64,000 nucleotides of DNA from Oscillospiraceae bacterium (GTDB lineage: Bacteria > Bacillota > Clostridia > Oscillospirales > Oscillospiraceae): contig WRMH01000001.1 of assembly GCA_009777235.1 (NCBI GenBank), positions 1-64,000 of the forward strand, read 5' to 3'. Position numbers and translations under genes: made by a program. Positions within the stretch are counted from its first letter, which is position 1; the number at the start of each line of letters is the position of its first letter. The notes beneath the pieces are model-generated. The model searched no databases, had not been told where the DNA came from, and worked only from the letters and a program-made list of their open reading frames with translations. Positions 39,031 through 59,759 of this stretch are shown here, in pieces.

Positions 39031-39060
39031 GCGTTATAACCTCCTTAAAAAAAGTAGCTG

Positions 39061-41427
39061 TCAGATGGAAACCACGACTGTTTGCTTTTTTTCTACACTA
39101 AACACTATTTCCGCACCGCATGGCAGCAACAGAGAAAAACGGCGTTTTTGAGGCATATTCGGGTATTCGCCTTCGTGCCTGACGGTCAGATTCCCGGATA
39201 CGTCTTCCCAATGGATGCTGTATCGCGCGTATTCACCTTGTTCATAACCGTATCCATCCCCTTCGTCTTCATATAAAACAAACTCGCTGTCCGCGCCGTT
39301 ATATACACGCAGGGTTATTGGAGCATCCGGTGATTCAAGGGCGTGTTGACGCACGATTCCCATCGGGATAATACTTCCTGAAGGAACAAACAACGGGATT
39401 TTATTCAACGGAGTTTCTACTGTGATTGTCTGACCACCTGAGTACCGTTTACCCGTATGGAAGTCAAACCAGTCCTTACCTTCAGGCAAATAGACATCAC
39501 GGCTTTTTGCGTTCGGTCGCATTACGGGGCATACCATTAGACCGCGACCCAACATAAATTGGGTTTTAATATTGAAAACCTTTTCATCTTTCCTAAAATC
39601 AAACGCGAGCATACGCATGATGGTATCCCGTTCATAAAAAACGGACGCACATAAACTATATATGTACGGGAGCAAACGCATCCTCAATCGAATCGAATCA
39701 GCTAATGCTTCGTATATTTCGTCGCCTATGTCACCGAAGCGCCATACTTCTCGGGGCGTATTCGTGCCATGACTGCGAAACAGCGGTAAAAACGCCCCTG
39801 TTTGAAACCAGCGCAGATATAACTCCCTATATGCGGGGTCATTGCATCCTTCGTTATATTCGCCGCGGGCAAACCAACAGTCTTCCCATCTTCCCGAAAA
39901 GAAACCGCCTATATCAAAATGCCAATACGGCTGACCGCTCAAACAGAGGTTTAATCCGTCAGCGATGGAGCGGCGTAGGTTTTCCCATGTTGCCGAAACA
40001 TCTCCATTCCATACCGCGGTTCCGTAGCGCTGCTGACCGGGATACCCCGAACGGGTCAGATTAAATACGCGCTTTTGGTCGCTTTTTTCGCGCTGACCTT
40101 CCCATATACCCTTGCTATGCAAAAGAGAATAGGCATTTATCATCGAAGGGTCAAGATATGCTTTCGCTTCGCTCACGTTCAACTGCATTCGGTTTTCAGG
40201 AATCATCGGCTCTTTTCCGTGCCAGTCTGCTTCAAACGGTTCGGAACAATCGCACCACCAAGCATCCACGCCTTTAGAAAACAAACCCTCGTTGGCTTGC
40301 CGCCAATAAACCTTTCTCGCTTCATCGGAAAACGCATCGTAGGTGGAGCGATTACCCAATAGCAACCCCTTTTCCAGCATTTCAAGTCGATTTGCGCCGT
40401 CGCCTTGCATATGAGGCCATATAGAAACCATCAGCTTTACATTCATGTTATGCAGTTCGTTTATACAGTCCTTCAAGCAGGGATAGCGTTCAACATCCAC
40501 CGTTTTCTGCCCCCACAAACCGTCCTCCCATGACTGCCAATCCTGCACGATAAGGTCAAGGGGGATTTGCCGCCGCCGATACTCGCGGGCAATTTCCAGA
40601 AGTTCATCCTGAGTGCAGTATCGCTCTTTTGATTGGATATACCCAAATGCCCACTTGGGCAGCATGGGGGCGTCTCCTGTAAGACGGCGTATGCTTGCAA
40701 TCATAGTGTCGAAATTGGGGCCATACAGGAAGAAGAAATCCATTTCCTCGTCTGCGTCCGAAGACAGATAACTTCCCATTGCGTCATCGTGAAAGGTCAT
40801 CGCGGAACAGCTATTGTACAGTATACCCCAGCCGTTACTCGACATCAATACCGGACAGGCGATTTTTAAGTTATGTTGATAAAGAAATTGATGCTGTCCC
40901 CGGTAATTCAGTACGCCTTCCTCATGTTGACCCAGCCCGTATATCGCTTCGCCCGGTTGAAAATCAAACGAAAGCCTTGTTTGGACTCCTTTTCGGTCTA
41001 TATAAGGGACTCCTTGTGCGTGCTGACGTATGCCGTCCACGCCCTGTACAGTTTCAATAAGTGCGTCTGAATGATAGTTGATTTGTACAATATCAATCTC
41101 GCGCAAAATCCGCCCACTCCGACTCGGTTCCTGCGTAAGAAGTTCGCCGTCGCTTGTCTCATAGCGCAGTACACCTTCGTGCGACAAATGAACATGCACT
41201 TTTGGTGTCGTTATCAAATACCCTTTTTCAGAATCGATTAAACTCCATTTCACGGTAATAGGTTCTGAATTTATTATCATGGGTTCGTTGCGGAGAATAA
41301 ACCGGCTCTTTACTGATGCGGTTATGCGCAGTAAATCCTCTTGAAGAACTTGAATACGCAAAGCGGAATCAGAGCCGGAGAATACAACGGCACTCTGTTC
41401 CCGCTTTAACAAGGTATAATTCCCCAC
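39061..41427 (-). CDS. GH31 alpha-glycosidase, probably alpha-xylosidase
   Basis: This 788-residue protein has the GH31 order: an N-terminal beta-sandwich, the barrel with WWCDCSEPFE (nucleophile Asp at about 392), WNGDVSATWENLR (acid Asp at about 475), FDIGGFFSG and RSHGTNTPREVW, and C-terminal beta domains. The resemblance is closest to YicI-type alpha-xylosidases. I chose the GTG at 41427 because GGGGGAGGG lies just upstream. An open frame extends to 41493 but runs through a perfect hairpin and matches no family sequence. It has no signal peptide, so it is cytoplasmic. It lies between the permease and esterase genes. Confidence 0.9.
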   Translation of the reverse strand: MGNYTLLKREQSAVVFSGSDSALRIQVLQEDLLRITASVKSRFILRNEPMIINSEPITVKWSLIDSEKGYLITTPKVHVHLSHEGVLRYETSDGELLTQEPSRSGRILREIDIVQINYHSDALIETVQGVDGIRQHAQGVPYIDRKGVQTRLSFDFQPGEAIYGLGQHEEGVLNYRGQHQFLYQHNLKIACPVLMSSNGWGILYNSCSAMTFHDDAMGSYLSSDADEEMDFFFLYGPNFDTMIASIRRLTGDAPMLPKWAFGYIQSKERYCTQDELLEIAREYRRRQIPLDLIVQDWQSWEDGLWGQKTVDVERYPCLKDCINELHNMNVKLMVSIWPHMQGDGANRLEMLEKGLLLGNRSTYDAFSDEARKVYWRQANEGLFSKGVDAWWCDCSEPFEADWHGKEPMIPENRMQLNVSEAKAYLDPSMINAYSLLHSKGIWEGQREKSDQKRVFNLTRSGYPGQQRYGTAVWNGDVSATWENLRRSIADGLNLCLSGQPYWHFDIGGFFSGRWEDCWFARGEYNEGCNDPAYRELYLRWFQTGAFLPLFRSHGTNTPREVWRFGDIGDEIYEALADSIRLRMRLLPYIYSLCASVFYERDTIMRMLAFDFRKDEKVFNIKTQFMLGRGLMVCPVMRPNAKSRDVYLPEGKDWFDFHTGKRYSGGQTITVETPLNKIPLFVPSGSIIPMGIVRQHALESPDAPITLRVYNGADSEFVLYEDEGDGYGYEQGEYARYSIHWEDVSGNLTVRHEGEYPNMPQKRRFSLLLPCGAEIVFSVEKKQTVVVSI

Positions 41428-41447
41428 ATTTAATCCCTCCCCCACAG

Positions 41448-41476
41448 AACGCCGCCGAAATACATCCGGCGGCGTT
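41448..41476. terminator. Stem-loop between permease and GH31 genes
   Basis: A perfect 10-bp GC-rich stem (AACGCCGCCG at 41448-41457, complement at 41467-41476) with a 9-base loop lies 30 bp after the permease stop. No T run follows on the minus strand, so it may be an attenuator or an mRNA-stabilising structure rather than a full terminator. Confidence 0.6.
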
Positions 41477-41506
41477 TGAATAGTCCGGCGCAACCGGGAT
41501 ACGGTA

Positions 41507-42400
41507 TTATTCTTTCACGCTGCCTATGTTCACGGTTACGAAATACTTCTGCAGGAATGGGTACACGAATAGAATTGGAACGGTAGCTACAATTGTCATT
41601 GCTGCCCGTATGGAGTTTGGCGTTACTATGTTGCGCATTTCCTGGCCGGGCATCATGTATTCGGGTGCTTGATTGGCGCCGAACTGCATTGATGCCGAGA
41701 GCATTTTCATAAGCTCATATTGCAACGTGCTATGCTGCTGCGCGGGAGCGAAGATAAAGGAATCGAACCATGAGTTCCACGCACCAACGCCGACCCACAA
41801 GGCAATAGTAGCGAGAACGGGTAGACATAATGGGAAAATGATACTAAGAAATATCCGCAGTTCACCCGCGCCGTCAATTTTCGCCGCTTCCACTAAGGAA
41901 CCGGGTAATGATTTGATGTATGTCCGTACAACGATGACATTAAACGGTCCGACCATGCCCGGTAAGACATAAACCCAAAAATTATTATACAGTCCGAGGT
42001 CGCGGATCAGGAAGAACTGTGGTATCAAACCGGCACTGACATACATGGTCAGAATCATAAAAATTGTCAAAAATTTTCGAAGCACAAACTCGTTGCGGGA
42101 TAGTATGTACGCAAGCAATCCTGCTGATAAAACATTAATTACAACTGAAATGACAGTACGCACTACAGACACAAAGAAAGCATCAAGCAAATACTCATTT
42201 TTGAATACGCTCTGATAATTAAACATAGACCATACTCTTGGCCAAAGGGTAATTCCGCCTCTTATTGTATCCCGGGCATCGTTGAAAGAAATAACCAGCG
42301 TGTTCCAGATAGGGTACAGCATGATTACTACTATCAAAAACATACCAAAAATGTTGATGACGTCGAATACTTTCTCGAGGGTGGTTCTTTTCATGTTCAT
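41507..42400 (-). CDS. ABC sugar transporter permease, YtcP/LplC type
   Basis: This is a 297-residue inner-membrane protein with six predicted helices. The permease EAA loop is visible (EAAKIDGAGELRIFLSIIFPL, about residues 187-207). The N-terminal part SFNDARDTIRGGITLWPR and the end VTVNIGSVKE are typical of the LplC/YtcP subfamily of CUT1 importers. It pairs with the upstream LplB-type permease, 13 bp away. No ATPase gene is present, so the importer probably uses a shared MsmX-type ATPase, as is known for this family. Confidence 0.92.
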   Translation of the reverse strand: MNMKRTTLEKVFDVINIFGMFLIVVIMLYPIWNTLVISFNDARDTIRGGITLWPRVWSMFNYQSVFKNEYLLDAFFVSVVRTVISVVINVLSAGLLAYILSRNEFVLRKFLTIFMILTMYVSAGLIPQFFLIRDLGLYNNFWVYVLPGMVGPFNVIVVRTYIKSLPGSLVEAAKIDGAGELRIFLSIIFPLCLPVLATIALWVGVGAWNSWFDSFIFAPAQQHSTLQYELMKMLSASMQFGANQAPEYMMPGQEMRNIVTPNSIRAAMTIVATVPILFVYPFLQKYFVTVNIGSVKE

Positions 42401-42413
42401 AATACGTTCCCCC

Positions 42414-43373
42414 TTATACCAGCCTTTCTTCGCCTACCCATTTTGCGGCGAAATTACATATGGTTATTACAACGAGGCTGACAACTGTTTTGAACATACC
42501 TGCCGCAGTACCATAGGAGTAACCTATGACGCTGCGCGAGCCGAAGCCCCTGCGCAGAACGAAAATATCAAGGGTTTCAGAAACATCCATGACAAGCCCG
42601 CTGTTGCCCAGCAGATACTGTACCTCAAAACCGGCGTTCAATATCCAGCCCGCATTCAGAATCAACAATATGACGATAGTAGGTTTAATGCTCGGCAAGG
42701 TAATATTCCACATCCTGCCGAAACGCCCGCAGCCATCTATTGCCGCAGCCTCGTACAGAGCAGGGTCTATGGCAGTCATGGCTGCTAAATATATGATGCT
42801 GTTCCAGCCCATTGACTTCCACACATTGGAAACGCCAACAATCCCCCAGAAGTAACCCGGCGTGCCGAGCCAGTGAATCGGCTTGTCGATAATGCCGAAC
42901 CACATCAGCAAGTTGTTAATAATCCCATCATCCATTGACAGCATATTTGCCATCAAGCCGCAAACGATAATCCATGATAGGAAATGAGGCATATATGAAA
43001 TCGTCTGTACGAACCGCTTGAAGAACCTCAAGCGCAACTCATTTAGGAACAAAGCGAACGTAATTGCTGTAACGAAGTGAAGGACGAGGTTTATAAGGCT
43101 CATCATAATGGTGTTATAGAGTGCTTGCGTGAAGTATTTGTCAGAAAAAAGATTCTTGAAGTGGGTGAGCCCTACCCATTCCTGCTCCCAGAAAGACAGA
43201 TGAGGCCTGAAGGTCTGAAAAGCCATCGTAAGTCCCCACAAGGGATAGTATGAGAAGATAAAGAAATAGACGATAAATGGTATTGATAAAAGAAGCAGCT
43301 CTTTTTGCGAACGCGCCATTGTGAAAAAGCCTCTTTTTTGAGGCGCGATTATCGGAATATTCCTATCGCTCAT
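42414..43373 (-). CDS. ABC sugar transporter permease, LplB type
   Basis: This 319-residue protein has six predicted helices and the EAA loop EAAAIDGCGRFGRMWNITLP (about residues 213-232). The N-terminal YYPLWGLTMAFQTFRP is typical of LplB permeases of the CUT1 family, which import oligosaccharides. It overlaps the small membrane-protein gene upstream by 4 bp and precedes the second permease by 13 bp. Confidence 0.92.
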   Translation of the reverse strand: MSDRNIPIIAPQKRGFFTMARSQKELLLLSIPFIVYFFIFSYYPLWGLTMAFQTFRPHLSFWEQEWVGLTHFKNLFSDKYFTQALYNTIMMSLINLVLHFVTAITFALFLNELRLRFFKRFVQTISYMPHFLSWIIVCGLMANMLSMDDGIINNLLMWFGIIDKPIHWLGTPGYFWGIVGVSNVWKSMGWNSIIYLAAMTAIDPALYEAAAIDGCGRFGRMWNITLPSIKPTIVILLILNAGWILNAGFEVQYLLGNSGLVMDVSETLDIFVLRRGFGSRSVIGYSYGTAAGMFKTVVSLVVITICNFAAKWVGEERLV

Positions 43374-43912
43374 TTCGTCACCTCCCTGTTTGTGGCTGCC
43401 GGAACTTCGGCATTATATCTGCCTGAGAACAGCTTGCATAGGAAGCCGGGAAGGAAATAAGCAACCAGGCATGTAGCAGCCAAAAAAAGCGCACCCATTA
43501 GCCCAAAAATGTCGCCAATATGGCTTATATTGAAAATAAACTTAAATAAGAAGAACGACACAGCAAACGTACCGATCCACATCAATTTCTCTGTTTTTTG
43601 AAGCTGCTGATTGTCGCTGCCGCTCCATGATAAACTCAGTGCGCTAGCGGCTAAAAAACCGCCGCCAACTGTGATAAGCAAAGCGAGCGTTCCGAGAACC
43701 CATCTCAGGGAGTTGTAGCTGCCTGAGAATAGCGCCGCCGGTATATCATCAAAATCCACGGATTGCATTCTTGCAATAATCTCTCCGTAGATTTCACGCT
43801 CAACTTCAATTTCCACTTCCAACCCTTTTGTGATGTTCCCCAGCAATGTAAAAACGCCGACAAACATAAGCAAGTAGGCAAAGAACGCGCATACCCATAC
43901 AATGTATTTCAT
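43370..43912 (-). CDS. Small four-helix membrane protein of unknown function
   Basis: This 180-residue protein is not recognised. Four hydrophobic helices are visible at about residues 4-26, 68-92, 108-130 and 133-158. An extracytoplasmic or cytoplasmic stretch between the first two is rich in Glu (TKGLEVEIEVEREIYGEII). It lies between the solute-binding protein and the permeases and overlaps the first permease by 4 bp, so it is translationally coupled to the transporter. A role as an accessory transporter subunit is inferred from position only. Confidence 0.75.
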   Translation of the reverse strand: MKYIVWVCAFFAYLLMFVGVFTLLGNITKGLEVEIEVEREIYGEIIARMQSVDFDDIPAALFSGSYNSLRWVLGTLALLITVGGGFLAASALSLSWSGSDNQQLQKTEKLMWIGTFAVSFFLFKFIFNISHIGDIFGLMGALFLAATCLVAYFLPGFLCKLFSGRYNAEVPAATNREVTK

Positions 43913-44088: not shown

Positions 44089-45918
44089 TTATGACATTAT
44101 TACGCCTGGTAAGTATCTGTTTTGGATATCTGTTATCTTATCAAAGGTCAGTCTTTCGGCGGCTTCCGAATCCATCGTGGAGAGCAGACTCCATACCTCG
44201 GAATAGCCGGGATGTTCAAACTGCGGCAGGAAGTCAGCGCGCTGTGTGAAGTTCTCACCGTTTGGCAGCCTGTAGTTGGAATAGAACTCTCTGTCGTAAT
44301 CATACATGTTGCCAATTCTTTCCTCAGGGGAGTTGCCCGGGCCGACAGCGTTGCCGTCCGGCAAGCGGCCTTCCAGCTTCACGAAAGATTCGTTGACTGT
44401 ATAACCTAAATTATCGCGCCTCCAGTCGGGGTCGTCGTGCAGGGCTTTCTGCTCGGGGGTGCGCCTGAATGTCCCGTTTTCATCGACATAGAAGTCCTTG
44501 TCCAGAATGCCCCAGTTGAGCAGAATCTGGATTTCGGGCATAAGGAGCTGGTCGAAGAATTTAAGTGCCCTTTCGACATCGCTGCATGATACGCTGATAC
44601 CGCCACCGTTACCGCCTTGGATACCAGCATGGGTTTGCCTGTTGTACGGGTACGGCTCGTCGCGGTCGAAAGTCAGGCCGAGGGGCACATAGGTACGCTC
44701 CATTCTGTTATCGCCAATCAAAACCTGTTCGCCTTCGCCAAAGGCCCATTGCTGCGAGAATACTGAAAGTACGCGCCCTTGTGCTATAACGGACATAAAC
44801 TGGTCGTGGTTCCTCGTGAATGTCTCGGGGTTGATGAGACCGTCGTGATATGCTTGGTTGAGCCTTGCGTAGTATCTCATGGCGTAGTCTTTGTTTTGAT
44901 AAATCTCAACCGCGAGGGTGTCGGGATTGACCACCACGTCGCCTTCGTTGCGGCCGCCGATGAGGTGCTGCGGCGGGTTCTTCAGGGAGAACGAGCGCCA
45001 GTCGGTCGAGAAAATCTCAAAGGGCAAGGTCGGCTGACCGTCAATCGTCGGATGCGCCGCATAGTAGCGGGCAAGGAGGTCGAAGAACTGGTCTAAGGTG
45101 GTGGGGAAAGAATAGTTATCCCATGCTAAAACGTCTTTTTGGATGTAGAATCCGGGTCCGTTGTAGTCGGCTTCGTAAAGAGAATCGAGTCCATCGCCGA
45201 GGGTGTATCTGCGGCCCCAGATGTCCAAAAGCCTGATGGAATTGTCGGTGGTTGCATTGCGCAGCCGTGTCTCGTAGAGTCCAAAGTGTTTCCATAGGCG
45301 GTCATAGTCTTGGATAAGGCCATCGAGATTCGCGAACGCGCCCGCGTTCAGAAACTCGCCGCGGTGCTGGCCCGGGGCAATCAGGTCGGCATATTCGCCG
45401 CCTGCAATCAGGACGCCGACCTTCTGGTCGATGTCGCCGGGTGTGAACTCCCACTCAAGGGTGACGCCGGTGATTCTCGCAAGCTCCAGCATGACAGGGT
45501 TGTTTCTCGCCGGGGCCTGACCTGATCCCGCTGTGAATACTGTGAAAGTAATCGGTTCGTCGGTGCTGTCGGGAAGATGAGAGGTGCCGACGGCGTTGAT
45601 CGGTGTGTTTCCCCAATCCGTGGTTCCGGCTGTGGCGTATGCGCCGCTATTTACCTCTGCTTGAATACCTTCGTAAATCCATTGTTCGAGAGCTGAGATT
45701 TCATCTGCGATTTCGTCATAGTTTTGCAGGTAGCCCGCCCATGCGTCTGCGAAATCGTCGGTTGGAATAATGTCACCGCCCGGCGGCAGGGTTGTTGCTC
45801 CCGGAGATGTTCCCGGAGTGGGGGTTGCCGTGTCGTCGTCTCCGCCTGCGCAAGCCGCCAAAACAGCGATAAGCATAGAGCAAGCAAGCAACAGCGCGAT
45901 GATTCTGGTTCTTTTCAT
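44089..45918 (-). CDS. ABC transporter solute-binding lipoprotein, LplA/YtcQ type
   Basis: This 609-residue lipoprotein begins with a signal peptide (MKRTRIIALLLACSMLIAVLAAC region; lipobox LAAC, lipidated Cys at about 23), followed by a Thr/Pro-rich linker and a large periplasmic-binding-protein fold. Large binding proteins of this length are typical of the LplA/YtcQ group that captures oligosaccharides for LplB/YtcP permeases. The ATG at 45918 has AAAGGAGG 8 bases upstream; the open frame continues upstream without a ribosome-binding site. Its promoter carries the 21-bp-spaced repeat described separately. It lies upstream of the membrane-protein and permease genes. Confidence 0.93.
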   Translation of the reverse strand: MKRTRIIALLLACSMLIAVLAACAGGDDDTATPTPGTSPGATTLPPGGDIIPTDDFADAWAGYLQNYDEIADEISALEQWIYEGIQAEVNSGAYATAGTTDWGNTPINAVGTSHLPDSTDEPITFTVFTAGSGQAPARNNPVMLELARITGVTLEWEFTPGDIDQKVGVLIAGGEYADLIAPGQHRGEFLNAGAFANLDGLIQDYDRLWKHFGLYETRLRNATTDNSIRLLDIWGRRYTLGDGLDSLYEADYNGPGFYIQKDVLAWDNYSFPTTLDQFFDLLARYYAAHPTIDGQPTLPFEIFSTDWRSFSLKNPPQHLIGGRNEGDVVVNPDTLAVEIYQNKDYAMRYYARLNQAYHDGLINPETFTRNHDQFMSVIAQGRVLSVFSQQWAFGEGEQVLIGDNRMERTYVPLGLTFDRDEPYPYNRQTHAGIQGGNGGGISVSCSDVERALKFFDQLLMPEIQILLNWGILDKDFYVDENGTFRRTPEQKALHDDPDWRRDNLGYTVNESFVKLEGRLPDGNAVGPGNSPEERIGNMYDYDREFYSNYRLPNGENFTQRADFLPQFEHPGYSEVWSLLSTMDSEAAERLTFDKITDIQNRYLPGVIMS

Positions 45919-45981
45919 CTTTGAATCCTCCTTTAGAATTATGAAACTTCTCCAATAATACGAAGCCGTTTCCATACAACT

Positions 45982-46045
45982 ATTGTACAAGATGCCATAT
46001 GTGTATACTGTGCAAATATTGCGGAGTTTTTCTCAAATATTGCTG
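45982..46045 (-). promoter_or_regulatory. Predicted AraC-activated promoter of the transporter operon
   Basis: On the minus strand the -10 is TACAAT (45987-45982) and, 17 bases upstream, the -35 position is the poor CAGTAT (46010-46005). One base upstream of it lies the 13-mer GCAAATATTGCGG (46012-46024, plus-strand reading), and 21 bp further TCAAATATTGCTG (46033-46045). Two direct half-sites at 21-bp spacing abutting a weak -35 are the layout of AraC-type activation. The same layout occurs at 59696-59759. Confidence 0.6.
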
Positions 46046-46105: not shown

Positions 46106-46132
46106 GGCGAGTCTCCGTATAAAAGACTCGCC
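46106..46132. terminator. Stem-loop after the AraC-GH43 fusion gene
   Basis: A perfect 9-bp stem (GGCGAGTCT at 46106-46114, complement at 46124-46132) with a 9-base loop lies 26 bp after the stop of the fusion gene. Only a weak T-rich stretch follows on the minus strand. It plausibly ends the enzyme operon before the transporter promoter. Confidence 0.55.
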
Positions 46133-46157: not shown

Positions 46158-49100
46158 TTACCCGAACACCCAATACCGGAAACTAAAGAGATTTTCGTCG
46201 CTGTCCCCTCTAAACATAAAGAATACATTGCGTACGCCGACGACCGGCTTCACGTCACATGAACGAACAGCCCATATAGAGTCATCCCCGGTTACTCCGA
46301 CACCCAGCGAACCGATGGTGTCTCCCACAGGGCTGTCCAGCCTGAGTTCAATCTCGCCGCCGATACGGGAAGCCACCCATGCGTGAAAGCGGGAAGCGCC
46401 GCTTTTGCCGAAATCAACATTGGCCACGGCCAGCCAATCGCCATCATGGATATGGGTAACGGCTCCGGTGTTTACCGATATTCCCGCGCACCAAGCGAAA
46501 GTCACCGCGTCCGCCCGTTCATACGGATTGATGGTTCCAGGCAGAGATGCGCCCTTCATATCCGCCCTGACTTGCCGAATCTGCCCGTTTCCATAGTAAG
46601 ACAGGCGATTGATATGCGGAGAACGGTAGCCCTTGACTCGTCCCATCGCTTTACCCAATGTCTGCGACTGATATGCGATGTACCACTGCCCTTTGAATGT
46701 GAATACGCAGTGATGGTTATCGTCGCCTTCGCCGAAAAACGCGGACGGGTTTTTCAATATGATACCTTTGTAGGTAAACGGCCCCAAGGGATGGTCTGAT
46801 ACCATATACGCAATTTCTCCGCGAGAGGGATATCCGTGAGGGTGCGAACCTTCAAAGTTGGAACAGTATGAGTAGTAATACCTGCCGGCATATTTATGGA
46901 TACCGGAATCCACATAGAACGCAGGAGCGTCAATCGTCACAGCTTCGCCAACCGTGCTGACCATATCGCCGCCCAACCGGATTACACGGGCTGAACGGGG
47001 ATGCAGCACATCCTCATCCGAACCGGCCGGCAGCCCGCCGCCGAAATAAAGATACCCGCTACCGTCGTCATCTATCAGTACAGCCGGGTCAAAGCACCAT
47101 GGGACGCCTTCCGTACCCGGAAGCCCCAAGTGAATCAGCGGCTCTCCGAGTGGGTCTGTCCAAGGGCCGAGAGGAGAGTCTGCCGTCAGTACGCCGATGT
47201 TGGACGCCTCATTGGAGAAATATAAGAAAAACCTGTCCTTTTCGTCTGTTTTCTTATACGCCACGGAAGGCGCCCATGAGTATTCCGCCCATTTTGCCGC
47301 ACCGTTCGCTCCTGCAGCAGGTATTGCACCGTGGTCTGTCCAGTTTAGGAGGTCTGCGGAGGAAATCACGTTAATCGTGTTGATTTTATGATATGTGTTT
47401 TCAATCAACCGTCCATACTCGTTGTATTCGGATGTATCGCCGGTCAAATACAGATACAGCCGTCCGTCGTATTCCAGCGCCCACGGGTCAGCCCCGAACT
47501 TGTGGCTGACAAGCGGGTTGGCGTACCCGGGGAGTTTTGCGGCCGCACCTGTTTCAATAGCTCGAATAACTATTTGGCCGCGCATATTATGGGTGAGGTA
47601 CGCGGCGTTTCCGCCGTCCGCATAAATATAGTCAGCCTGTAAATCAATGGTTGCGCCCGCCGGGGCATAATCGTTGAGCTTGAAACGCAGCACCGCAAGC
47701 AGGTCTGATGTATGGTTGGAAAACGATACTGCTTCACCCGTCACAGTAATGCGCAGACGTTTGCCTTCCACGGTAAAGGCAGTTTCCCCGCAGATGTTTT
47801 CGGAACAGAAAACCACGTCGGCCACATCAAAAAGCGCCGGCACAGGCACGGAAACATATAGCCCCTTATAATCCCCCTCCGGCAACGCTTCCATATGAAT
47901 GGAGACATCAATCTGTGTGTTTTTCAATCCGACGGCTGCCGTATCCCCGCCAAAGGAAGCGCTCAGTATCGTTAATGATTCGTTGTCCTTCGCCAGTTCT
48001 CCGCTTATGCGGAAGTAATCGAAATCCGTATATCCTCCCGCAAGCTGCGTCGAGTAATAGAACAACGCGAAACGATAGCCGGTGAAATGCGACAGCTTAT
48101 ATTGCATAGGAAGTGAATCTCCGATGGAACGCCATGTTAACTCATCCAGGCTAAAGTAAAAACGGGCGTTGTCCGCGCCGTCAAAATCGAAATCCGCCCT
48201 CAGATACAAACGGTTCTGCCGGAGGGGAACGCTTTCAATTTCCTTCGCCGCACCGGACGCGGCGTTGACCATGACGAGATATTTTTTCCCATGAACCATC
48301 TTAACGCCCACATATCCGTATAGTTCCTGCAACGCCGCCAGTCCCGCAGCATCTCCGTCGTTCATCCCGCTGACGTCTATAGCGGTTGTTCCCGCGCACA
48401 CCGGACCGAAAGTACGCTGCGTCAACGTGTTGCGCGCATCCAAAAAGCCCCGGTTGAGATACCCGGAATGAAGCCTGAGATAACCGGGTCTTTCGGTCAG
48501 CGACCAAAGATTGTGGTCAGGATTGTGATTCCACTGCCATTGGAGAGGCAAGCTATATCCGGCAGGGTCATTTTCACCCGGCATTGTTTTTGTGTTTCGC
48601 GGCAGGTGCTTCTCGGTTATAGATACTTCTGCCACATAATAATCCATCAAGTCCTTTTCCTTTTTGGGTCTTTCAGAATAAGGCGTCTCGATAAAAACAG
48701 AAGTTTCGGATAAGTCCGCGTCTTCCGGTAACGTGTATGTACCGTTCAGGCAACCCCACTCTCCTTTGGTCAGATTGCCCGAACCTATTATTTGTATTTC
48801 TTCCCAAGACGTGCCGTTGCGGATACAGAGATTGAAGGTCTTTTCAGGCGGGCCTGACATATATTTAACTTTAGCGGAGGTTTTATATATGCCGCCCGGT
48901 TTCACCTTGCCCGTGATAAACTGCCGGAGACCGGAGGCCGTGGTAATCCGGGTGGTTACGGACAGCACAGGCAAGCCTTCATACGTCTCTTTTTCTGCTA
49001 TTTCAATCTTAGCGACTTCCATGGCGTCCCAATAAGCAATTCCGTCTTTGAAACGGTTATTAAGCAGCAGTTCCGCACTCTCCGGCAGAGAATCGTTCGC

Positions 49101-51110
49101 CGCGCCGTTTCCGGGTATATGCTCATAACGGTATCCGATATCGTTGTACGCACCGTAATCTTTATATACCGCGTTTTGGGAAAACTCATCGGAAGTGACA
49201 ATACTTCCTTCCATACGCCGGGATGGCGGCAGCTTCATTTGCAGCGGTACAGCGCCCTCTGTGCCGAACACCGGCCAATCATCCACCCATATTACGGGTG
49301 TCAGTACAGGAACCCGTCCTACAGCCCCATAATCCTGAAACAGTACGGCAAACCAATCTCCGTTCGGCGTATCAATAATACCGCCCTGCGCAACGCCCAT
49401 CCGCTTATATCCCATATCATCATCCAGCACGACCCGGCCTTCATAGGGGCCTGCAATACAATCCGCGCGGTAACACAACTCTATGCGCCGACCCGAACCT
49501 GTCGGCGGCCACGCGATTAGAAATAAATAATATTTTCCGTTGACTTTATATATGTGGGAACCCTCCGCAGGCAGTCCTCCGTCGCCACCCGCGTTTGCTT
49601 TTTCAATGATAATCCGGTTAAGGCCGCCGGACAAAACGGCGGTGGCGCCGGAGTTCAGCTCGACAACCCGGATTGCGCCTCCGCCATGTGCCAGATATAC
49701 GCGGCCATCATCGTCAAACAGCAACGACGGGTCGTGGAATACCTTGTCCAGCTCATACCGCCGCCAAGACCCGTTTTCTATGTTTTCGGTTTGGAAAATA
49801 TAGGTCTTGTTTGTGGTGAAAGACGCGGCAACAACAAAAAATACGCCGTTATGATGCCGCAGGGAGCTTGCCCAGCTTCCTTTCCCGTATGCCGCGGCTC
49901 CGTTGCGCAACGCGCAGGCGTCGCTGTCGTCTAAAATATCGTAGACATAATTCACGATTTCCCAATGGACTAAATCATAAGACTTCATCACCGGGATACC
50001 GGGGCAAAAATACATAGTGGTGCTGGTCATATAATAAATATCGCCAACGCGGATTACATCCGGGTCCGGGACGTCAGCCCATAGAAACGGGTTGCTGAAA
50101 GCGCCGTCCGAATCAAGACGACTTGTGAGAGAAATCGCGCTGCAACTGAACGCACCGGCAGGCGCGGGTGTTTTTATTGAAAAAATCGTCCCATTGGCTG
50201 CGGCGGTCTCTTCCCCGGCGTCTATATGGACTGCTTGCTTATTGGCCTGTCGTGTATACCGATATTCCTTTGGTGTACAATGGTTGAGATTCTTAAATAC
50301 ACGGTTAAAGGTCGCCGTGCTTTGGAACCCTGCTTCCAGAGCAATCTCGGTTACAGAACGTGCAGTATTCAGAAGCAGCGTCTCGGCTTTATCAATACGG
50401 ACTTTTGTCAAAAAGTCGTAAAAAGACATATTCGTAAACTCTCGAAACCATCGGGAAAAATAATACTTGCTGTAACTAACGGCCTGTGCCGCCATTTCCA
50501 ATGTTAAATCATCAGCATAATTTTGATAGATAAAATTTAGACACTCATTAAGCCTGCCCATATGTTCTTTACGTTTAACAAGATTGGTATACTGTAAATC
50601 GGCTTTTTTGGGGTATTTGCGCGCTAGATGCAACGTGATGCCGATAATTCTATTTGTGATTGCGATATCATAATACGCATCCCGGCGTAATTGCTCATCC
50701 AGCATTTCCATCAACAAAGTTTTTATGGCTTCATGCACATCCGGGTCATTTCCCGGTGTAATCAGCCAAGGGTTTGTGTAAAGGTAGGATGCGTTTATAA
50801 AACCGCGAATTGAGTTCAATAACTCCAAGTCGAATTGCAGTATGACTCGCTGACCTTTGGTTTCCGGCGCGCGCATTATATGCAGTCCGCCGGAAGGAAT
50901 GATTAAGATATCGTACTCGTTTAGATGATACGGCCAGTGGTTTACATCTACTTGATACGCATTTTGAATGGGCATAACAATTTCTACCGCATTATGCCAG
51001 TGACTTGGATAGCTGTCTGTGCTGAAATTGATGTGGAGCAAAAACGGTTGCTCCGTCTCATAATACACGGTTTCCTGTGTATTGACGGGTTCTTTATCCA
51101 CGGCTTTCAC
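46158..51110 (-). CDS. AraC-type regulator fused to two GH43 modules and carbohydrate-binding modules
   Basis: One uninterrupted frame of 1650 residues. Domains in order: cupin-like sensor (about 25-120) and AraC double helix-turn-helix (about 200-283: LTLEMAAQAVSYSKYYFSRW, VTEIALEAGFQSTATFNRVF). First GH43 blade domain (about 338-625; base Asp in ADVPDPDVIRVGDIYYM). CBM4/9-like domain (about 678-830). GH43 beta-sandwich (about 860-1033). A cohesin-like or Ig-like sandwich (about 1046-1180; LLAVLRFKLNDYAPAGATID). Second GH43 domain (about 1195-1500; base Asp in GADPW, EYSWAPSV, GVPWCFDPAVLIDDDG). CBM6-like end (about 1537-1650). No signal peptide is present, so it should be cytoplasmic. It is the last gene of the enzyme operon, 29 bp after the GH127 gene. 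It is the only AraC regulator in the window. A fused transcript of formerly separate genes or an assembly join are the alternatives; no frameshift is needed. Confidence 0.88.
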   Translation of the reverse strand: MKAVDKEPVNTQETVYYETEQPFLLHINFSTDSYPSHWHNAVEIVMPIQNAYQVDVNHWPYHLNEYDILIIPSGGLHIMRAPETKGQRVILQFDLELLNSIRGFINASYLYTNPWLITPGNDPDVHEAIKTLLMEMLDEQLRRDAYYDIAITNRIIGITLHLARKYPKKADLQYTNLVKRKEHMGRLNECLNFIYQNYADDLTLEMAAQAVSYSKYYFSRWFREFTNMSFYDFLTKVRIDKAETLLLNTARSVTEIALEAGFQSTATFNRVFKNLNHCTPKEYRYTRQANKQAVHIDAGEETAAANGTIFSIKTPAPAGAFSCSAISLTSRLDSDGAFSNPFLWADVPDPDVIRVGDIYYMTSTTMYFCPGIPVMKSYDLVHWEIVNYVYDILDDSDACALRNGAAAYGKGSWASSLRHHNGVFFVVAASFTTNKTYIFQTENIENGSWRRYELDKVFHDPSLLFDDDGRVYLAHGGGAIRVVELNSGATAVLSGGLNRIIIEKANAGGDGGLPAEGSHIYKVNGKYYLFLIAWPPTGSGRRIELCYRADCIAGPYEGRVVLDDDMGYKRMGVAQGGIIDTPNGDWFAVLFQDYGAVGRVPVLTPVIWVDDWPVFGTEGAVPLQMKLPPSRRMEGSIVTSDEFSQNAVYKDYGAYNDIGYRYEHIPGNGAANDSLPESAELLLNNRFKDGIAYWDAMEVAKIEIAEKETYEGLPVLSVTTRITTASGLRQFITGKVKPGGIYKTSAKVKYMSGPPEKTFNLCIRNGTSWEEIQIIGSGNLTKGEWGCLNGTYTLPEDADLSETSVFIETPYSERPKKEKDLMDYYVAEVSITEKHLPRNTKTMPGENDPAGYSLPLQWQWNHNPDHNLWSLTERPGYLRLHSGYLNRGFLDARNTLTQRTFGPVCAGTTAIDVSGMNDGDAAGLAALQELYGYVGVKMVHGKKYLVMVNAASGAAKEIESVPLRQNRLYLRADFDFDGADNARFYFSLDELTWRSIGDSLPMQYKLSHFTGYRFALFYYSTQLAGGYTDFDYFRISGELAKDNESLTILSASFGGDTAAVGLKNTQIDVSIHMEALPEGDYKGLYVSVPVPALFDVADVVFCSENICGETAFTVEGKRLRITVTGEAVSFSNHTSDLLAVLRFKLNDYAPAGATIDLQADYIYADGGNAAYLTHNMRGQIVIRAIETGAAAKLPGYANPLVSHKFGADPWALEYDGRLYLYLTGDTSEYNEYGRLIENTYHKINTINVISSADLLNWTDHGAIPAAGANGAAKWAEYSWAPSVAYKKTDEKDRFFLYFSNEASNIGVLTADSPLGPWTDPLGEPLIHLGLPGTEGVPWCFDPAVLIDDDGSGYLYFGGGLPAGSDEDVLHPRSARVIRLGGDMVSTVGEAVTIDAPAFYVDSGIHKYAGRYYYSYCSNFEGSHPHGYPSRGEIAYMVSDHPLGPFTYKGIILKNPSAFFGEGDDNHHCVFTFKGQWYIAYQSQTLGKAMGRVKGYRSPHINRLSYYGNGQIRQVRADMKGASLPGTINPYERADAVTFAWCAGISVNTGAVTHIHDGDWLAVANVDFGKSGASRFHAWVASRIGGEIELRLDSPVGDTIGSLGVGVTGDDSIWAVRSCDVKPVVGVRNVFFMFRGDSDENLFSFRYWVFG

Positions 51111-51139: not shown

Positions 51140-53077
51140 TCAGCCCTTTCTAACCCACACCAGCATTTCGCCCGGCTCACGGTTGCCCCACAGGTGGTAG
51201 GGGACAAAGGTCAATTCTTGCTCCGTTCGCCTCTTAGGGGTAAACGCATACATCCCGCTGCCGGCGTCCTCCTCGCGGTACCCCCGAGCCGTAAGCCTAA
51301 CGCAGCGCATCCCGCCGATGGTGTCCGCTGTTTCCGTAAAATCGGTCTCACCGTCTATCAGCAGGGCGTGCAGATTGGTTCCATTGTCACGCTCCTCAAG
51401 GCAATACACCAGCGGCCCGCGCTGCACGCAGACCTTTCCCGCGTCCGCGCGGACGTTTGTGTGCGCGTACACAAGACTGGGGAGCATATCAAAGCGGATG
51501 CCGACGGTGTCACCCGCCGCAAACTGACGGGTGATATAAGCGTACCCGTCCTTCATCACAGGTTTAATCGCCTCCCCATTCAGCGCGAACTTCGCGCCTT
51601 TGCACCATCCGGGAACACGGAACGCCAGCGTTACCGGCGTTTCTGCGTCCGTCTTGACTGTAACTGCAACCTCCCCGTCCAACGGGTATTCCGTCCGTAC
51701 AGACAACCCGAACGTACCGTAGGACAGCTCCGCCGTCATGTCCGATTGGGCGTAGAGATGAATATATACCGTATCGGTTTCAGCCGTATAAAGATATTTC
51801 CCCATAGACGCCAACAGACGTGCCGCGTTGGGCGGACAGCAGGCGCAATGATGCCACTTCTGCCGCCGCGCTTTTACATGGGCGCGGGCAGGGTTTTTCT
51901 CGCTTGCCTCCGGCCACACCTCCATCGGGTTGACATAGAGATAGCTCTCCCCGTCCGTCCCAAGCCCAGCCAAAACGGTGTTGTACAGCACCCGCTCCGT
52001 CACGTCGGCGTAAGCGGTGCGGGCTTCGATTTTCAATAGGCTGTGCGCGAAATACATCAGCCCGATGGACGCGCAGGTTTCCGAATAGTTGATTTCATTG
52101 GGCAGGTCATACGCGAAGGTAAACGCCTCGCCGTGGTTTGTCGAGCCGATACCCCCGGTTATGTACAGTTGGCGGCAAATATCCTCAAACAACACGCGGC
52201 AGGCTTTCACTAGGCTTTCGTCCTGTGTGAGACGTCCCACCTCCGCCATGCCCGTATACATATACACGGCGCGAACGGCGTGGCCGACCGCCTCCGTCTG
52301 CTCGCGGACGGGCTTATGCGCCTGATTGTAGCTGTAATCGGCGGGCATAGGCACCTTGCGCTTCGACCATTCCGAAAAACCGTCCAGCGCCTTGTATTCC
52401 TCGGCGAAAGTGTTCGGCTCCGTGCCGCGAATATCAAGGAAAAACTTGGCGAGTTCGAGATATCTCCGCTCCCCCGTCGCCTCATACAGCTTAACCAGAG
52501 CCAGCTCAATTTCCTGATGCCCCGGGCAGCCCTTGCGCTTGCCCTCGTCAGGCCCGTACAGACCGTCAATCAAGTCGACGTACCGCCGGACGATATCCAG
52601 CAGCGCCCGCTTACCCGTCGCCCTCTCATAAGCCACGGCGGCCTCGATGAAGTGGCCGAGGCAATACAGCTCATGAGCTTCATACAGGTTGGTCAGCCGT
52701 CTCTCAGGGGCTGTAAGCTGAAAATAGGTGTTGAAATATCCGTCCGGCTGCTGCGCTTTTGCTATCAGCTCAATCACCTCGTCGGCGCGGGCTTCCCATT
52801 CCAACGCGCCGCCGTTTTGCAAGCAATACGCCACAGCCTCCAGCCACTTGGCGGCGTCGCTGTCCTGAAAGAGCAATCCGTGAAACTTTCCCTCGGACAA
52901 CCCTGCGGCGATGCGGATGTTTTCAATGCAGCCGCTCTTGTCCGCACCCTCCACGAGGTCATTCAGCGCGTTCCACTGATACGGGAGTATGGCGCCGGAA
53001 ACCAGCCTGTAATACGGGCTGAGAAACGCATCGTCAAGCCGCACGTTTTCCATCGTAACCTCTCGAATCATGTTCAC
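51140..53077 (-). CDS. GH127 beta-L-arabinofuranosidase
   Basis: This 645-residue protein matches the GH127/DUF1680 family: the N-terminal VRLDDAFLSPYYRLVSGAIL, then the alpha/alpha-barrel with GCPGHQEIELALVKLYEATG and YSETCASIGLMYFAHSLL. The zinc-thiolate active site is in WHHCACCPPNAARLLA (about residues 407-421). In the characterised enzyme HypBA1 the Cys of this pair is the nucleophile and others bind zinc. It releases beta-linked arabinofuranose, for example from hydroxyproline-linked or pectic side chains. There is no signal peptide. It lies 15 bp after the GH51 gene. Confidence 0.92.
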   Translation of the reverse strand: MNMIREVTMENVRLDDAFLSPYYRLVSGAILPYQWNALNDLVEGADKSGCIENIRIAAGLSEGKFHGLLFQDSDAAKWLEAVAYCLQNGGALEWEARADEVIELIAKAQQPDGYFNTYFQLTAPERRLTNLYEAHELYCLGHFIEAAVAYERATGKRALLDIVRRYVDLIDGLYGPDEGKRKGCPGHQEIELALVKLYEATGERRYLELAKFFLDIRGTEPNTFAEEYKALDGFSEWSKRKVPMPADYSYNQAHKPVREQTEAVGHAVRAVYMYTGMAEVGRLTQDESLVKACRVLFEDICRQLYITGGIGSTNHGEAFTFAYDLPNEINYSETCASIGLMYFAHSLLKIEARTAYADVTERVLYNTVLAGLGTDGESYLYVNPMEVWPEASEKNPARAHVKARRQKWHHCACCPPNAARLLASMGKYLYTAETDTVYIHLYAQSDMTAELSYGTFGLSVRTEYPLDGEVAVTVKTDAETPVTLAFRVPGWCKGAKFALNGEAIKPVMKDGYAYITRQFAAGDTVGIRFDMLPSLVYAHTNVRADAGKVCVQRGPLVYCLEERDNGTNLHALLIDGETDFTETADTIGGMRCVRLTARGYREEDAGSGMYAFTPKRRTEQELTFVPYHLWGNREPGEMLVWVRKG

Positions 53078-53092
53078 TTCTCCCCTCTCCCG

Positions 53093-54535
53093 TCAGACGA
53101 CGGCAATCTCCATCACGGAGCAGGCGGGCATGGTCAGCGTAAAGCCGTCCGCCGTGTTAGTGATGTCCGTAAAGGCTTTGATTGCGACCGTGTCCGGCGT
53201 ACCGAAGTCGTTATGCGCGTCCATCGCGCCCGACAGGACACGCGCCGCGACACTCTCTGGGCTGTAGCCGACGGTACAGTCTATCTTGCGGCTCTCCATC
53301 GGGGAGAGGTTTGCTATGGTGATATGGGTCGTGCCGTTTTCATCCAGCGACGCGGAGAGATGGAGACCGGGGATTTGCTTTTCGCCGCCGATTGGGTCTG
53401 CTTCCACATAGCTCTCAATCAGCGTCGCGTCGTGGTGGGCTTTGTATAGGTCAAACACATGGTATGTCGGGGTCAGCACAACCTTCTCCCCCTCTGTGAG
53501 GACGACGGCTTGCAGGACGTTGACCGTCTGCGCGAGGTTTGCCATCGTGACGCGGCGGCTGTGGCGGTTGAAGATGTTGAGCGTGCAGGCGGCGACCAGC
53601 GCGTCCCGCATGGTGTTCTGCTGATATAAAAAGCCGGGGTTGGTGCCTGGCTCCACGTCATACCATGTCCCCCACTCGTCCACGATGAGTCCTACGCGGT
53701 GTTCCGGGTCGTAGTGGTTCATAATCCGCGCGTGGTTTTCAATCAGCTCATTCATCCGCAGGGCTTTCTTGAGGGTTTCAAAGTAGTCCGCCTCGGCGAA
53801 GCGGGTCGCGGAGCCTTTGCTGTCCCAGTTGTGCGGGACGGTGTAATAGTGCAGGCTCAGGGCGTCCATAAACTTCCCGGCGCGGGACATCAAAACCTCC
53901 GTCCATCTGTAGTCGTCCGAGTTCGCGCCGCAGGCCACCTTATAAATACTGTTATCACCGTAGGAGCGGAGATAGGTTTGATACCGGCGGTATTCGTCGG
54001 CGTAATACTCCGCCCGCATGTTCCCGCCGCAGCCCCAGTTTTCGTTGCCCACGGCGAAGTATTTCAAGCGCCAAGGCTCCTTGCGCCCGTTTTCCGCCCG
54101 GAGCTGCGACATGGGCGAAACGCCGTCCAAGGTCATATACTCAACCCATTCGCTCATCTCCCGCACGGTGCCGCTGCCGAGGTTTCCGTTGACATACGGC
54201 TCACAGCCCAGCTTTTCGCACAGCTCCATAAACTCGTGCGTCCCGAAGCTGTTGTCCTCGGTCACGCCGCCCCAGTGGGTGTTGACCATCTTCTTGCGGC
54301 TTTCCTTCGGTCCCACGCCGTCCCGCCAGTGATATTCGTCGGCAAAGCAGCCGCCCGGCCAGCGGAGGACGGGGATTTTGATGTGTTTCAGCGCTTCGAC
54401 GACCGGCATATTGATTTGCCCGTCCAGATACAGCCCGCCGTAAATACAGCGCCCCAGATGCTCGGAGAAATGCCCGTAGATATTCCGGTTGATTCTGCTC
54501 TGTTGAATGGCTTTGTTGATGATGAGCTTGCTCAT
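53093..54535 (-). CDS. GH51 alpha-L-arabinofuranosidase
   Basis: This 480-residue enzyme has the GH51 pattern: [20 protein letters not shown] at the start, the acid Glu in [14 protein letters not shown] (about residue 170), [18 protein letters not shown], and the nucleophile Glu in [11 protein letters not shown] (about 287). A C-terminal beta domain ends in [13 protein letters not shown]. It removes alpha-linked arabinofuranose from arabinan, arabinoxylan or arabinogalactan oligosaccharides in the cytoplasm. It lies 24 bp after the GH39 gene and 15 bp before GH127. Confidence 0.95.
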
Positions 54536-54559
54536 GTGTGTTTCCTCCTATCGAATTAT

Positions 54560-56062
54560 TCATACTCCTTGGATACGCTCTTGCGTAAAACCTCTGTCCG
54601 TTTCAGGCGTAATGGCTTGCAGCTCAAAGTAACACACGGCGTTTGCGGTTAACAAAACCTCAAACTCCGCATCGCCGTCCCTGACGTCCAACCGCTTTGT
54701 AGTGATACGGGGGCGGGCGCATTCCTTTAACAGCTCCGTCTGACGCTTTGAGGGATATGCGGGAGAGCCCATGTCAAGCCATGTTTTCAGCGGGTTGCAC
54801 GTAATCTCGTCTGCCGTCTTGAGCAGCAGGAGATACGCGCCGTCCTTAACGGCGGCCAAAAACCGCAGCGTTATATCGCCGCCCTGCCCGTCAACGGGAT
54901 TCCACGCGACGCCGCGCAAATCACCGCTGTCGGATTTGGTCACGATGAAATGTTCACTTCTCGCGACCGCCTCCGGGTACAGCTCTTTATAAAACACATA
55001 TGTCAGGTAGGTTGGCTTTGGAATCCCTCCGTTTGCAAGCAGTCCGAAGCAGCCGGAAAACGGGGTGAACGCAACGCCCGTTTCCTCAAAGACATCCCCG
55101 AATGTCCAGTATGAATACGACGCGCAGCAGTCGCCGAGTTCGCTTAACACGCGGGCTATGTACGCGGCGTTCAGATTGGTGTCGTGAATGGGGTTTTTGG
55201 GGCTGTAGGAGGTGTTAAACTCGGTGATGTGCATTTCCATACCCGAAAACTGCGGAAAGCTGTCGATAATCAGGCGGCTTTGCCTAAGCTCCTCCATAAA
55301 CGCCTCGGGCGTTATCAGCTTTTGGTACACATAGCGCCCGTCTGTTTCGGGGGCTTCCGTGGCATAGGCGTGCCGCGTCACAAAGTCGAGCGGGACATTG
55401 TTCTCCGAGCAATACTCCAAAAAGCAGCGCATCCAACGCTCGTCGTCCACGCCGCAAATTGCCGGTCCGCCGACGCGGATTCGCGCGTCACAGCTTTTGA
55501 CCGCCCTGCTTGTTACGTCATAGAGCTTGAAATACTCCTCCATATCCGCGTCTTTCCAAAAGCCCGGCAGATTGGGCTCGTTCCATACCTCAAACGGCCA
55601 GGAAATCACTTCCTCACTGCCGTAGCGTTCTATCCAGTGGGTGACCGCCGCCGTAACCAACCGCGCCCATTTATCGTAGCAGACAGGTGGGGTGACGTTG
55701 CCTTTCCAGTAAAAAATCGTTTGACTGCCCGAAGCCATCTGCTCCGGCATAAACCCGAGCTCTACAAACGGCTTGATGCCCAACGAGAGATAGCCGTCGA
55801 ACACCATATCAACATAGCTGAAGTTGTACTCCTCTTTTTCAATGCCGTCCTCGGTGTATGTATGATACACCGCCATATCGTCGCAGAACAGCCCGTGCCC
55901 GCGGATATAGGCAAAGCCGATATCCTCCTGTACCTTCTCCAGCTGCTTATGGTACTCGTGCCGCAGCGCAAGATTCATCCGTCCAGTACCCACGCAGTAT
56001 GCGGCGTTATTGCCGAACGGCACGGTGTTCTCGAGGTTTATGCGGTAAGCAAGTATTTTCAC
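54560..56062 (-). CDS. GH39 glycosidase, probably beta-xylosidase
   Basis: This 500-residue protein has a TIM-barrel with the GH39 acid Glu in WPFEVWNEPNLPGFWKDADM (about residue 160) and the nucleophile Glu in EMHITEFNTSYSP (about 281). The segments HRHEYHKQLEKVQEDIGFAY and VTRHAYATEAP also fit. GH39 contains beta-xylosidases and alpha-L-iduronidases; beta-xylosidase fits the neighbours, but some members act on other beta-pentosides. No signal peptide. It lies between GH29 and GH51 in the operon. Confidence 0.88.
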   Translation of the reverse strand: MKILAYRINLENTVPFGNNAAYCVGTGRMNLALRHEYHKQLEKVQEDIGFAYIRGHGLFCDDMAVYHTYTEDGIEKEEYNFSYVDMVFDGYLSLGIKPFVELGFMPEQMASGSQTIFYWKGNVTPPVCYDKWARLVTAAVTHWIERYGSEEVISWPFEVWNEPNLPGFWKDADMEEYFKLYDVTSRAVKSCDARIRVGGPAICGVDDERWMRCFLEYCSENNVPLDFVTRHAYATEAPETDGRYVYQKLITPEAFMEELRQSRLIIDSFPQFSGMEMHITEFNTSYSPKNPIHDTNLNAAYIARVLSELGDCCASYSYWTFGDVFEETGVAFTPFSGCFGLLANGGIPKPTYLTYVFYKELYPEAVARSEHFIVTKSDSGDLRGVAWNPVDGQGGDITLRFLAAVKDGAYLLLLKTADEITCNPLKTWLDMGSPAYPSKRQTELLKECARPRITTKRLDVRDGDAEFEVLLTANAVCYFELQAITPETDRGFTQERIQGV

Positions 56063-56087
56063 TTTGTATTCCTCCGTTTTTGTTCTG

Positions 56088-57554: not shown

Positions 57555-57567
57555 AATCTTGCCCCTT

Positions 57568-59695: not shown

Positions 59696-59759
59696 ATAAT
59701 ACCATACGCTCTGCCAAAAAACCTATCAAGTAGTGCGATAAACTTCTCAAATATTGCTG
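59696..59759 (-). promoter_or_regulatory. Predicted AraC-activated promoter of the enzyme operon
   Basis: On the minus strand the -10 is TATTAT (59701-59696) and the -35 position, 17 bases away, is the weak AGGTTT (59724-59719). One base upstream is TCAAGTAGTGCGA (59726-59738) and 21 bp further TCAAATATTGCTG (59747-59759), identical to the distal half-site at 46033-46045. The geometry is the same as at 45982-46045 to the base. Confidence 0.6.

Follow-up and report, generated by a model that had tools for sequence, protein, structure and literature searches.

An AraC-type transcription regulator and a twin-GH43 glycosidase with carbohydrate-binding modules are joined in one open reading frame in the 64,000-nt stretch of an Oscillospiraceae genome analyzed here (hereafter, the window), and the same fusion is present at full length in two other genomes. 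The fusion is rare but genuine, and its second glycosidase domain lacks the catalytic acid in two of the three cases. The gene closes a row of glycosidase genes next to an ABC importer, with an operator-like direct repeat in front of both presumed operons.

Reading frame and domain architecture

The single frame of 1650 codons described in the initial annotation was confirmed at positions 46158–51110 on the minus strand. It begins with GTG, preceded at 11 nt by an AAAAGGG stretch, and is separated from the stop of the GH127 gene ahead of it by 29 bp. The AraC regulator module occupies residues 1–290 (50241–51110, minus strand) and consists of a cupin (approximately residues 26–101) and a double helix-turn-helix (HTH, approximately residues 187–284). 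The N-terminal position and the double HTH, both noted earlier, were well supported by Pfam (HTH_18 at residues 208–284, E 7.8e-23; HTH_AraC, E 2e-13), and the HTH region matched the structures of SoxS, Rob, MarA and AraC. The cupin (AraC_binding) scored below the Pfam cut-off in the window (E 0.07, 13.3 bits versus 21.1), whereas both other fusions exceeded it, at 36.5 and 28.2 bits (E 4.8e-9 and 1.8e-6, respectively). Its motif HWH..E was present throughout an alignment of seven AraC proteins, of which three are fused and four stand-alone, and the residues of both HTH motifs and of the cupin HWH motif were conserved between the fused and the stand-alone proteins. No signal peptide was seen by eye, as had been stated before, the N-terminus being the AraC domain itself.

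A linker of residues 291–337 (50100–50240), free of in-frame start codons in the window, leads to the enzyme part, where Pfam recognized GH43 in two stretches (E 8.9e-64). The first catalytic domain, GH43a (residues 338–650; 49161–50099), has 6MLY (BeGH43/FAE) as its nearest solved relative. It is followed by a CBM4/9 (Pfam CBM_4_9, residues 680–811; 48678–49073) and by a concanavalin-like GH43_C2 domain (residues 853–1035; 48006–48554), which scored 133.7 bits in Pfam and had been overlooked by the initial annotation. After a cohesin-like beta domain (residues 1037–1188; 47547–48002), the protein continues with the second glycosidase domain, GH43b (residues 1190–1520; 46551–47543; nearest solved relative 3C7E), and ends with a CBM6 (Pfam CBM_6, residues 1535–1649; 46164–46508), all on the minus strand. 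Both binding modules of the earlier description thus hold by Pfam, while its cohesin-like domain survives weakly as a fold and fails as a sequence match: residues 1037–1188 had neither a Pfam match above chance nor a PDB sequence match, and in an AlphaFold model built from two sequences only (pLDDT 63) the first 11 Foldseek matches were cohesin modules or cohesin-dockerin complexes, at E values of 0.01–0.05 and TM scores of approximately 0.4–0.5, with no E value reaching 0.001. A cohesin identity of this domain is, on such a model, weakly supported. Another AlphaFold model, of 650 residues, was too poor (pLDDT 43) and was set aside. The G+C content of the gene is uneven: 0.42 in the AraC part and 0.48–0.56 in the remainder, next to 0.58–0.59 in the neighboring GH127 and GH51 genes.

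Occurrence and ancestry of the fusion

Searches for the same domain order elsewhere yielded two more full-length fusions, making three in total across three families and two orders. The second (G140; 1628 aa, 62% identical to the window protein) came from 394 searched genomes of the order and belongs to another family; a scan of named genomes with two AraC peptide patterns identified its source as the metagenome-assembled genome Oscillospiraceae bacterium Mx356_bin55, contig JAISVY010000063.1. The third (G670; 1655 aa, 52% identical) was found among 391 genomes of the class and belongs to another order. Both have the Pfam domain order of the window protein. With two other genomes carrying the full fusion, an assembly error at the AraC-GH43 junction, for which the initial annotation had suggested a check, can be ruled out. 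No further fusion was detected among 60 relatives or 398 genomes of the phylum; the genome draws overlap and some genomes are incomplete, and scoring in the 394-, 391- and 398-genome searches was limited to three candidate places in each genome. One apparent AraC-GH43 fusion, a 1090-aa open frame in genome G421, was rejected: a response regulator ends there at position 8474 and a separate GH43 starts at 8664, while a different AraC lies on the opposite strand.

The occurrence is patchy. Within the window's genus, a search with the AraC part at 1e-25 drew no match from the other 18 genomes, and the fusion was found at 1e-60 in one of 18 genomes of the G140 family and in one of 32 of the G670 family. 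From this pattern, horizontal spread is taken as the probable cause.

The two parts of the fusion have separate closest relatives. Those of the AraC part are stand-alone AraC/XylS proteins of approximately 290 aa, such as the one in G422 (289 aa, 47% identical); these relatives (G422, G661, G642; 34–47% identical) have the same cupin and double HTH and lie near a promoter with a 21-bp direct repeat, but end soon after the HTH and lack an enzyme part. The enzyme part resembles secreted-type enzymes of the same domain order (G060, G716 and, except for a missing CBM4/9, G613; 45–48% identical), which differ from it in having a signal-like N-terminus, recognized by eye, instead of AraC, and an intact GH43b triad. 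The one from the window's own family (G060, L085:7453-12990; 1845 aa) has twin GH43 domains, two CBM4/9 and FIVAR repeats, no AraC by Pfam, and, by eye, a signal-like hydrophobic N-terminus and an LPxTG-like tail. Since the AraC module stands where the unfused relatives have their signal-like sequence, a cytoplasmic location is predicted for the fused enzyme. The enzyme half would then have come from a secreted multidomain arabinoxylan-degrading enzyme, whose signal peptide was lost on joining AraC.

Active sites of the two GH43 domains

The initial annotation had assumed two complete GH43 domains, possibly hydrolyzing the imported oligosaccharide. This holds for the first one: the triad Asp349/Asp460/Glu516 of GH43a is intact in all nine aligned sequences (three fusions and all six unfused ones), and GH43a is very probably an active enzyme. 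Its relative 6MLY acts on wheat arabinoxylan by removing arabinose side chains but did not cleave arabino- or xylo-oligosaccharides (PMC7815789); by analogy, GH43a may need a polymer-like substrate.

The second domain lacks the general acid. In the window, Asp1208 and Asp1341 of GH43b are retained, while the catalytic Glu (Glu225 in 3C7E) is replaced by Val1400, encoded by GTG at 46911–46913 (minus strand). Among 24 aligned sequences, composed of the three fusions and 21 homologues from 16 genomes (several of which contributed two), the base Asp is present in all 24, the second Asp in 23 (Ala in G670) and the acid Glu in 22. The exceptions at the latter position are the window (Val, GTG) and G670 (Gly, GGG), while G140 has GAG. 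The acid was therefore lost in two of three fusions versus none of the 21 other homologues, a difference with a probability of 3/276, or approximately 0.01, in a Fisher's test calculated by hand that ignores relatedness. None of these 21 homologues was seen joined to AraC, and a Pfam scan of G060 found no AraC. Because the window protein is closer to G140, which retains Glu, the alignment is most simply read as two independent losses. Each replacement is one base away from GAG, and Val1400 in the window, taken alone, may be an error.

Other conserved positions of GH43b changed as well. Out of 81 columns invariant among the 21 homologues, the window protein departs at 8, the G670 protein at 16 and the G140 protein at 1 (with three gaps in addition), compared to 0–7 of 81–91 columns when each of the homologues was left out in turn. 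In GH43a, 2 of 57 columns were changed in each fusion, but leave-one-out counts among the six unfused sequences reached 1–16 of 58–73, so that, with the GH43a set being more diverse than the GH43b set, the contrast between the two domains is softer than the fusion numbers suggest. Overall identity among the fusions was similar, 56–73% for GH43b and 64–72% for GH43a.

Selection acts on both halves. Between the window and G140, the folded domains other than the cohesin-like one had pN of 0.15–0.27 and pS of 0.63–0.80, and the cohesin-like domain had pN of 0.34 and pS of 0.75, while the linker reached pN of 0.51–0.69 and pS of 0.68–0.72 over the three fusion pairs, with an identity of 8–32%. No dN/dS ratio is given because dS was saturated in most comparisons. 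By these substitution patterns, AraC, GH43a and GH43b are alike under purifying selection, and the linker is under little. GH43b thus appears to have been retained yet freed from catalysis in two lineages; in the window it is, judging from its active-site residues, a member of the fold family outside the catalytic class. The loss of the acid fits binding without cleavage better than hydrolysis, which shifts the initial idea of an enzyme acting as the sensor toward a pseudo-enzyme.

Gene cluster and candidate operator

The fusion gene comes last, behind a row of minus-strand genes (51140–59662) encoding an aldo/keto reductase, which is the first of them, an alcohol dehydrogenase, GH29, GH39, GH51 and GH127. 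On its other side, also on the minus strand, are the genes of an ABC binding protein (44089–45990, likely start ATG at 45918), two ABC permeases (41507–43373) and a GH31, an esterase and a GH43 with a CBM6-like module (36536–41493), the latter GH43 being 78% identical to the one downstream in G140. These genes are presumed to form two operons. The order of fusion, binding protein and permeases is common to the window and G140, while the G670 fusion comes after the permeases; the binding protein is 57–58% identical over approximately 520 residues to those beside the two other fusions. The fusion thus seems to travel with the importer, and the cluster, judged from its gene families, would serve the import of arabinoxylan fragments and their intracellular dismantling.

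Two minor features of the importer genes were observed. The binding protein looks circularly permuted: its residues 73–113, downstream of the lipobox region, correspond to the C-terminal 34–39 residues of the homologues found next to the G140 and G670 fusions (E 0.008 and 0.001), and the protein itself ends at the point where this segment would begin. A gene at 43373–43912, between those of the binding protein and the permeases, encodes a membrane-like protein of 180 aa that has no Pfam match.

A candidate operator precedes both presumed operons. It consists of a 10-bp half-site, GCAATATTTG, directly repeated 21 bp apart with an overall length of 31 bp, and the pattern GCAATATTTG-N11-GCAATATTTG was derived from the window's own copy upstream of the binding-protein gene (46013–46043, minus strand), which is followed by TACAAT at 45982–45987. 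A second copy with two mismatches (59727–59757, minus strand), followed by TATTAT at 59696–59701, is located ahead of the aldo/keto reductase gene, and therefore of the presumed operon ending with the fusion gene. At up to three mismatches, 0.02 matches were expected in the window. The rest of the 2.6-Mb genome had one other match, with three mismatches, and the reversed control pattern had one match.

The 21-bp repeats, already noticed in the initial annotation, proved to be an operator-like element that goes with the AraC clade: apart from both cluster promoters, six of the 14 further loci with a member of the clade had matches at up to three mismatches (L086, L097, L134, L137, L140 and L143), with 0.00–0.01 expected per matching locus and approximately 0.1 in all, while the remaining eight (L084, L087, L135, L136, L138, L139, L141 and L142) had none at this threshold. 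The match in L097 (G670) precedes the binding-protein gene, and so does the one in L134 (G661), where it adjoins a stand-alone AraC. In L084 (G140), a weaker copy with five mismatches was found before the binding-protein gene by eye and with a directed script. A TATAAT-like hexamer follows the second half-site at a distance of 24–26 nt in five of the six promoters examined: 25 nt at both window promoters (binding protein and aldo/keto reductase), 26 nt in G670, 25 nt in G140 and 24 nt in G661, the latter tying with another hexamer at 27 nt; the sixth promoter, from G422, is in an unclear register. With such a spacing, the second half-site would overlie the -35 region, and in activated promoters of the AraC type a half-site is likewise located at the -35 region. 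Regulators of the AraC/XylS family bind half-sites spaced by roughly two helical turns.

The motif alone is not specific, as follows from its off-locus and control matches: on whole genomes, five of six matches in G670, two of three in G422, one of two in G661 and both in G060 were off-locus, with none in G140, while the reversed control pattern produced 0, 1, 2, 0 and 2 matches in G670, G422, G661, G060 and G140, respectively. No AraC of the clade was seen in G060, despite its two matches. Because the repeat precedes both presumed operons and recurs in the AraC clade, the DNA-binding half looks functional.

Two further observations concern the repeat and its surroundings. In G422, a one-mismatch 21-bp repeat (G422:C14:38141-38171) shares a contig with the stand-alone AraC gene, at a distance of approximately 13 kb. 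In the window, an 11-bp hairpin without a T-run (46106–46132), possibly an attenuator or a processing site, is located between the fusion stop and the operator; the 126-nt stretch holding it is not unusually stable (z of -1.4; 16 of 200 shuffles fold equally well).

Proposed mechanism and alternatives

We propose that the fusion is a cytoplasmic one-component regulator-enzyme, in which a sensor composed of GH43b, CBM6 and CBM4/9 has been added to the cupin; for this model as a whole we consider the balance to be about even. The AraC half would bind the 21-bp direct repeat at both promoters of the arabinoxylan cluster that encodes it, activating the importer operon from one of them and, from the other, the operon in which the fusion gene comes last, which would result in positive autoregulation. 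DNA binding and regulation of its own cluster by the fusion are highly probable. GH43a would still trim imported arabinoxylan fragments, while GH43b, crippled in two of the three fusions and otherwise conserved, would together with CBM6 and CBM4/9 hold an oligosaccharide, and the held oligosaccharide would report on intact substrate in addition to the cupin. The cluster would be switched on as arabinoxylan fragments enter, the sensor being the cupin, GH43b-CBM6, or both. That the sugar modules take part in sensing can be suggested only tentatively, and the most specific version of this idea, with GH43b, deprived of its acid by at least two independent losses that followed the fusion, as a captured oligosaccharide receptor telling AraC of uncut arabinoxylan fragments and GH43a cutting the signal away, is slightly more doubtful. 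The complete GH43b triad of G140 means, as a caveat to the model, that loss of the acid is not universal.

It is quite possible that the AraC half is an ordinary regulator with a passenger enzyme, its cupin sensing a free sugar and the tethered enzymes gaining co-expression and co-inheritance without a part in sensing. The cupin motif shared by all seven aligned AraC proteins allows such an ordinary sugar-sensing route, and the operator-like repeats also adjoin stand-alone relatives that have no enzyme part. However, the fusion has been retained in three lineages with synonymous sites near saturation, which suggests an advantage, and a different reason would have to be found for GH43b being a pseudo-enzyme in two of the fusions. 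Neutral decay, with an intracellular enzyme losing its second catalytic domain and the regulator, would agree with the number of changed invariant GH43b columns in the window and G670 (8 and 16 of 81) exceeding the leave-one-out range, but is improbable in view of the purifying selection acting alike on AraC, GH43a and GH43b, the open frames of all three fusions and the retained operator-like repeat. A separate action of the two halves, the enzyme being freed from the regulator by proteolysis at the variable 47-residue linker or by internal translation from in-frame start codons, which are present in the linkers of G140 (residues 306 and 310) and G670 (residues 305 and 313), is marginally less probable still, since no in-frame ATG, GTG or TTG occurs at residues 251–360 of the window protein and no conserved cleavage motif was seen by eye in the alignment.

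The latter points also concern what the initial annotation had named as evidence against a true fusion. A stop or frameshift in the AraC-GH43 frame was looked for in the three genomes, and none was found; a separate start for the GH43 part was likewise missing in the window, where the first in-frame start codon past residue 251 is Met361, located inside GH43a after the catalytic base Asp349.

Relation to known systems

AraC regulators are mostly assumed to sense simple sugars, and, to our knowledge, the intracellular sensing of complex fragments in Clostridia-type fiber degraders is poorly known. A trigger enzyme is one that, besides being active, controls transcription in response to its substrate. 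In the model preferred here, the fusion may enable an enzyme to signal the presence of its substrate to the genes that it serves. It could also exemplify the conversion of an enzyme into a receptor and could yield a modular biosensor for arabinoxylan fragments. With a DNA-binding half, an intact GH43 and a crippled GH43 on one chain, the sensing question becomes testable by domain deletion.

AraC proteins with long C-terminal parts are already known; what is new here is a different enzyme set, which is partly pseudo-enzyme. The AryK-type proteins of Staphylococcus are likewise long and begin with AraC, and their C-terminal part presumably resembles GH39. The AryK model (NCBIfam NF047455) covered only residues 28–301 of the fusion with 106.5 bits, compared to a cut-off of 850, which places the fusion outside this family, and the matched part includes neither GH43 nor CBM. 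The nearest solved relatives of the two glycosidase domains, 6MLY and 3C7E (BsAXH-m2,3), are free enzymes without a regulator, and 3C7E retains Glu225.

A transcription regulator joined to predicted glycosyl hydrolase and carbohydrate-binding domains has been described for ECF52 and ECF53 (PMC10766802), although these are sigma factors of Actinobacteria with a transmembrane part, and neither AraC nor GH43 is named in the passage that describes them. In Roseburia loci, genes for AraC, GH43 and ABC proteins adjoin one another (PMC5320581). An AraC-GH43 fusion was not found in the titles and abstract beginnings of the open-licence literature in PubMed Central, a result that is weak as evidence of absence. 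Another joined frame was observed by eye in one of the loci of the AraC clade (L140:1730-4516), where a single open frame of 928 aa combines a carboxylesterase-like half with a GH43-like half.
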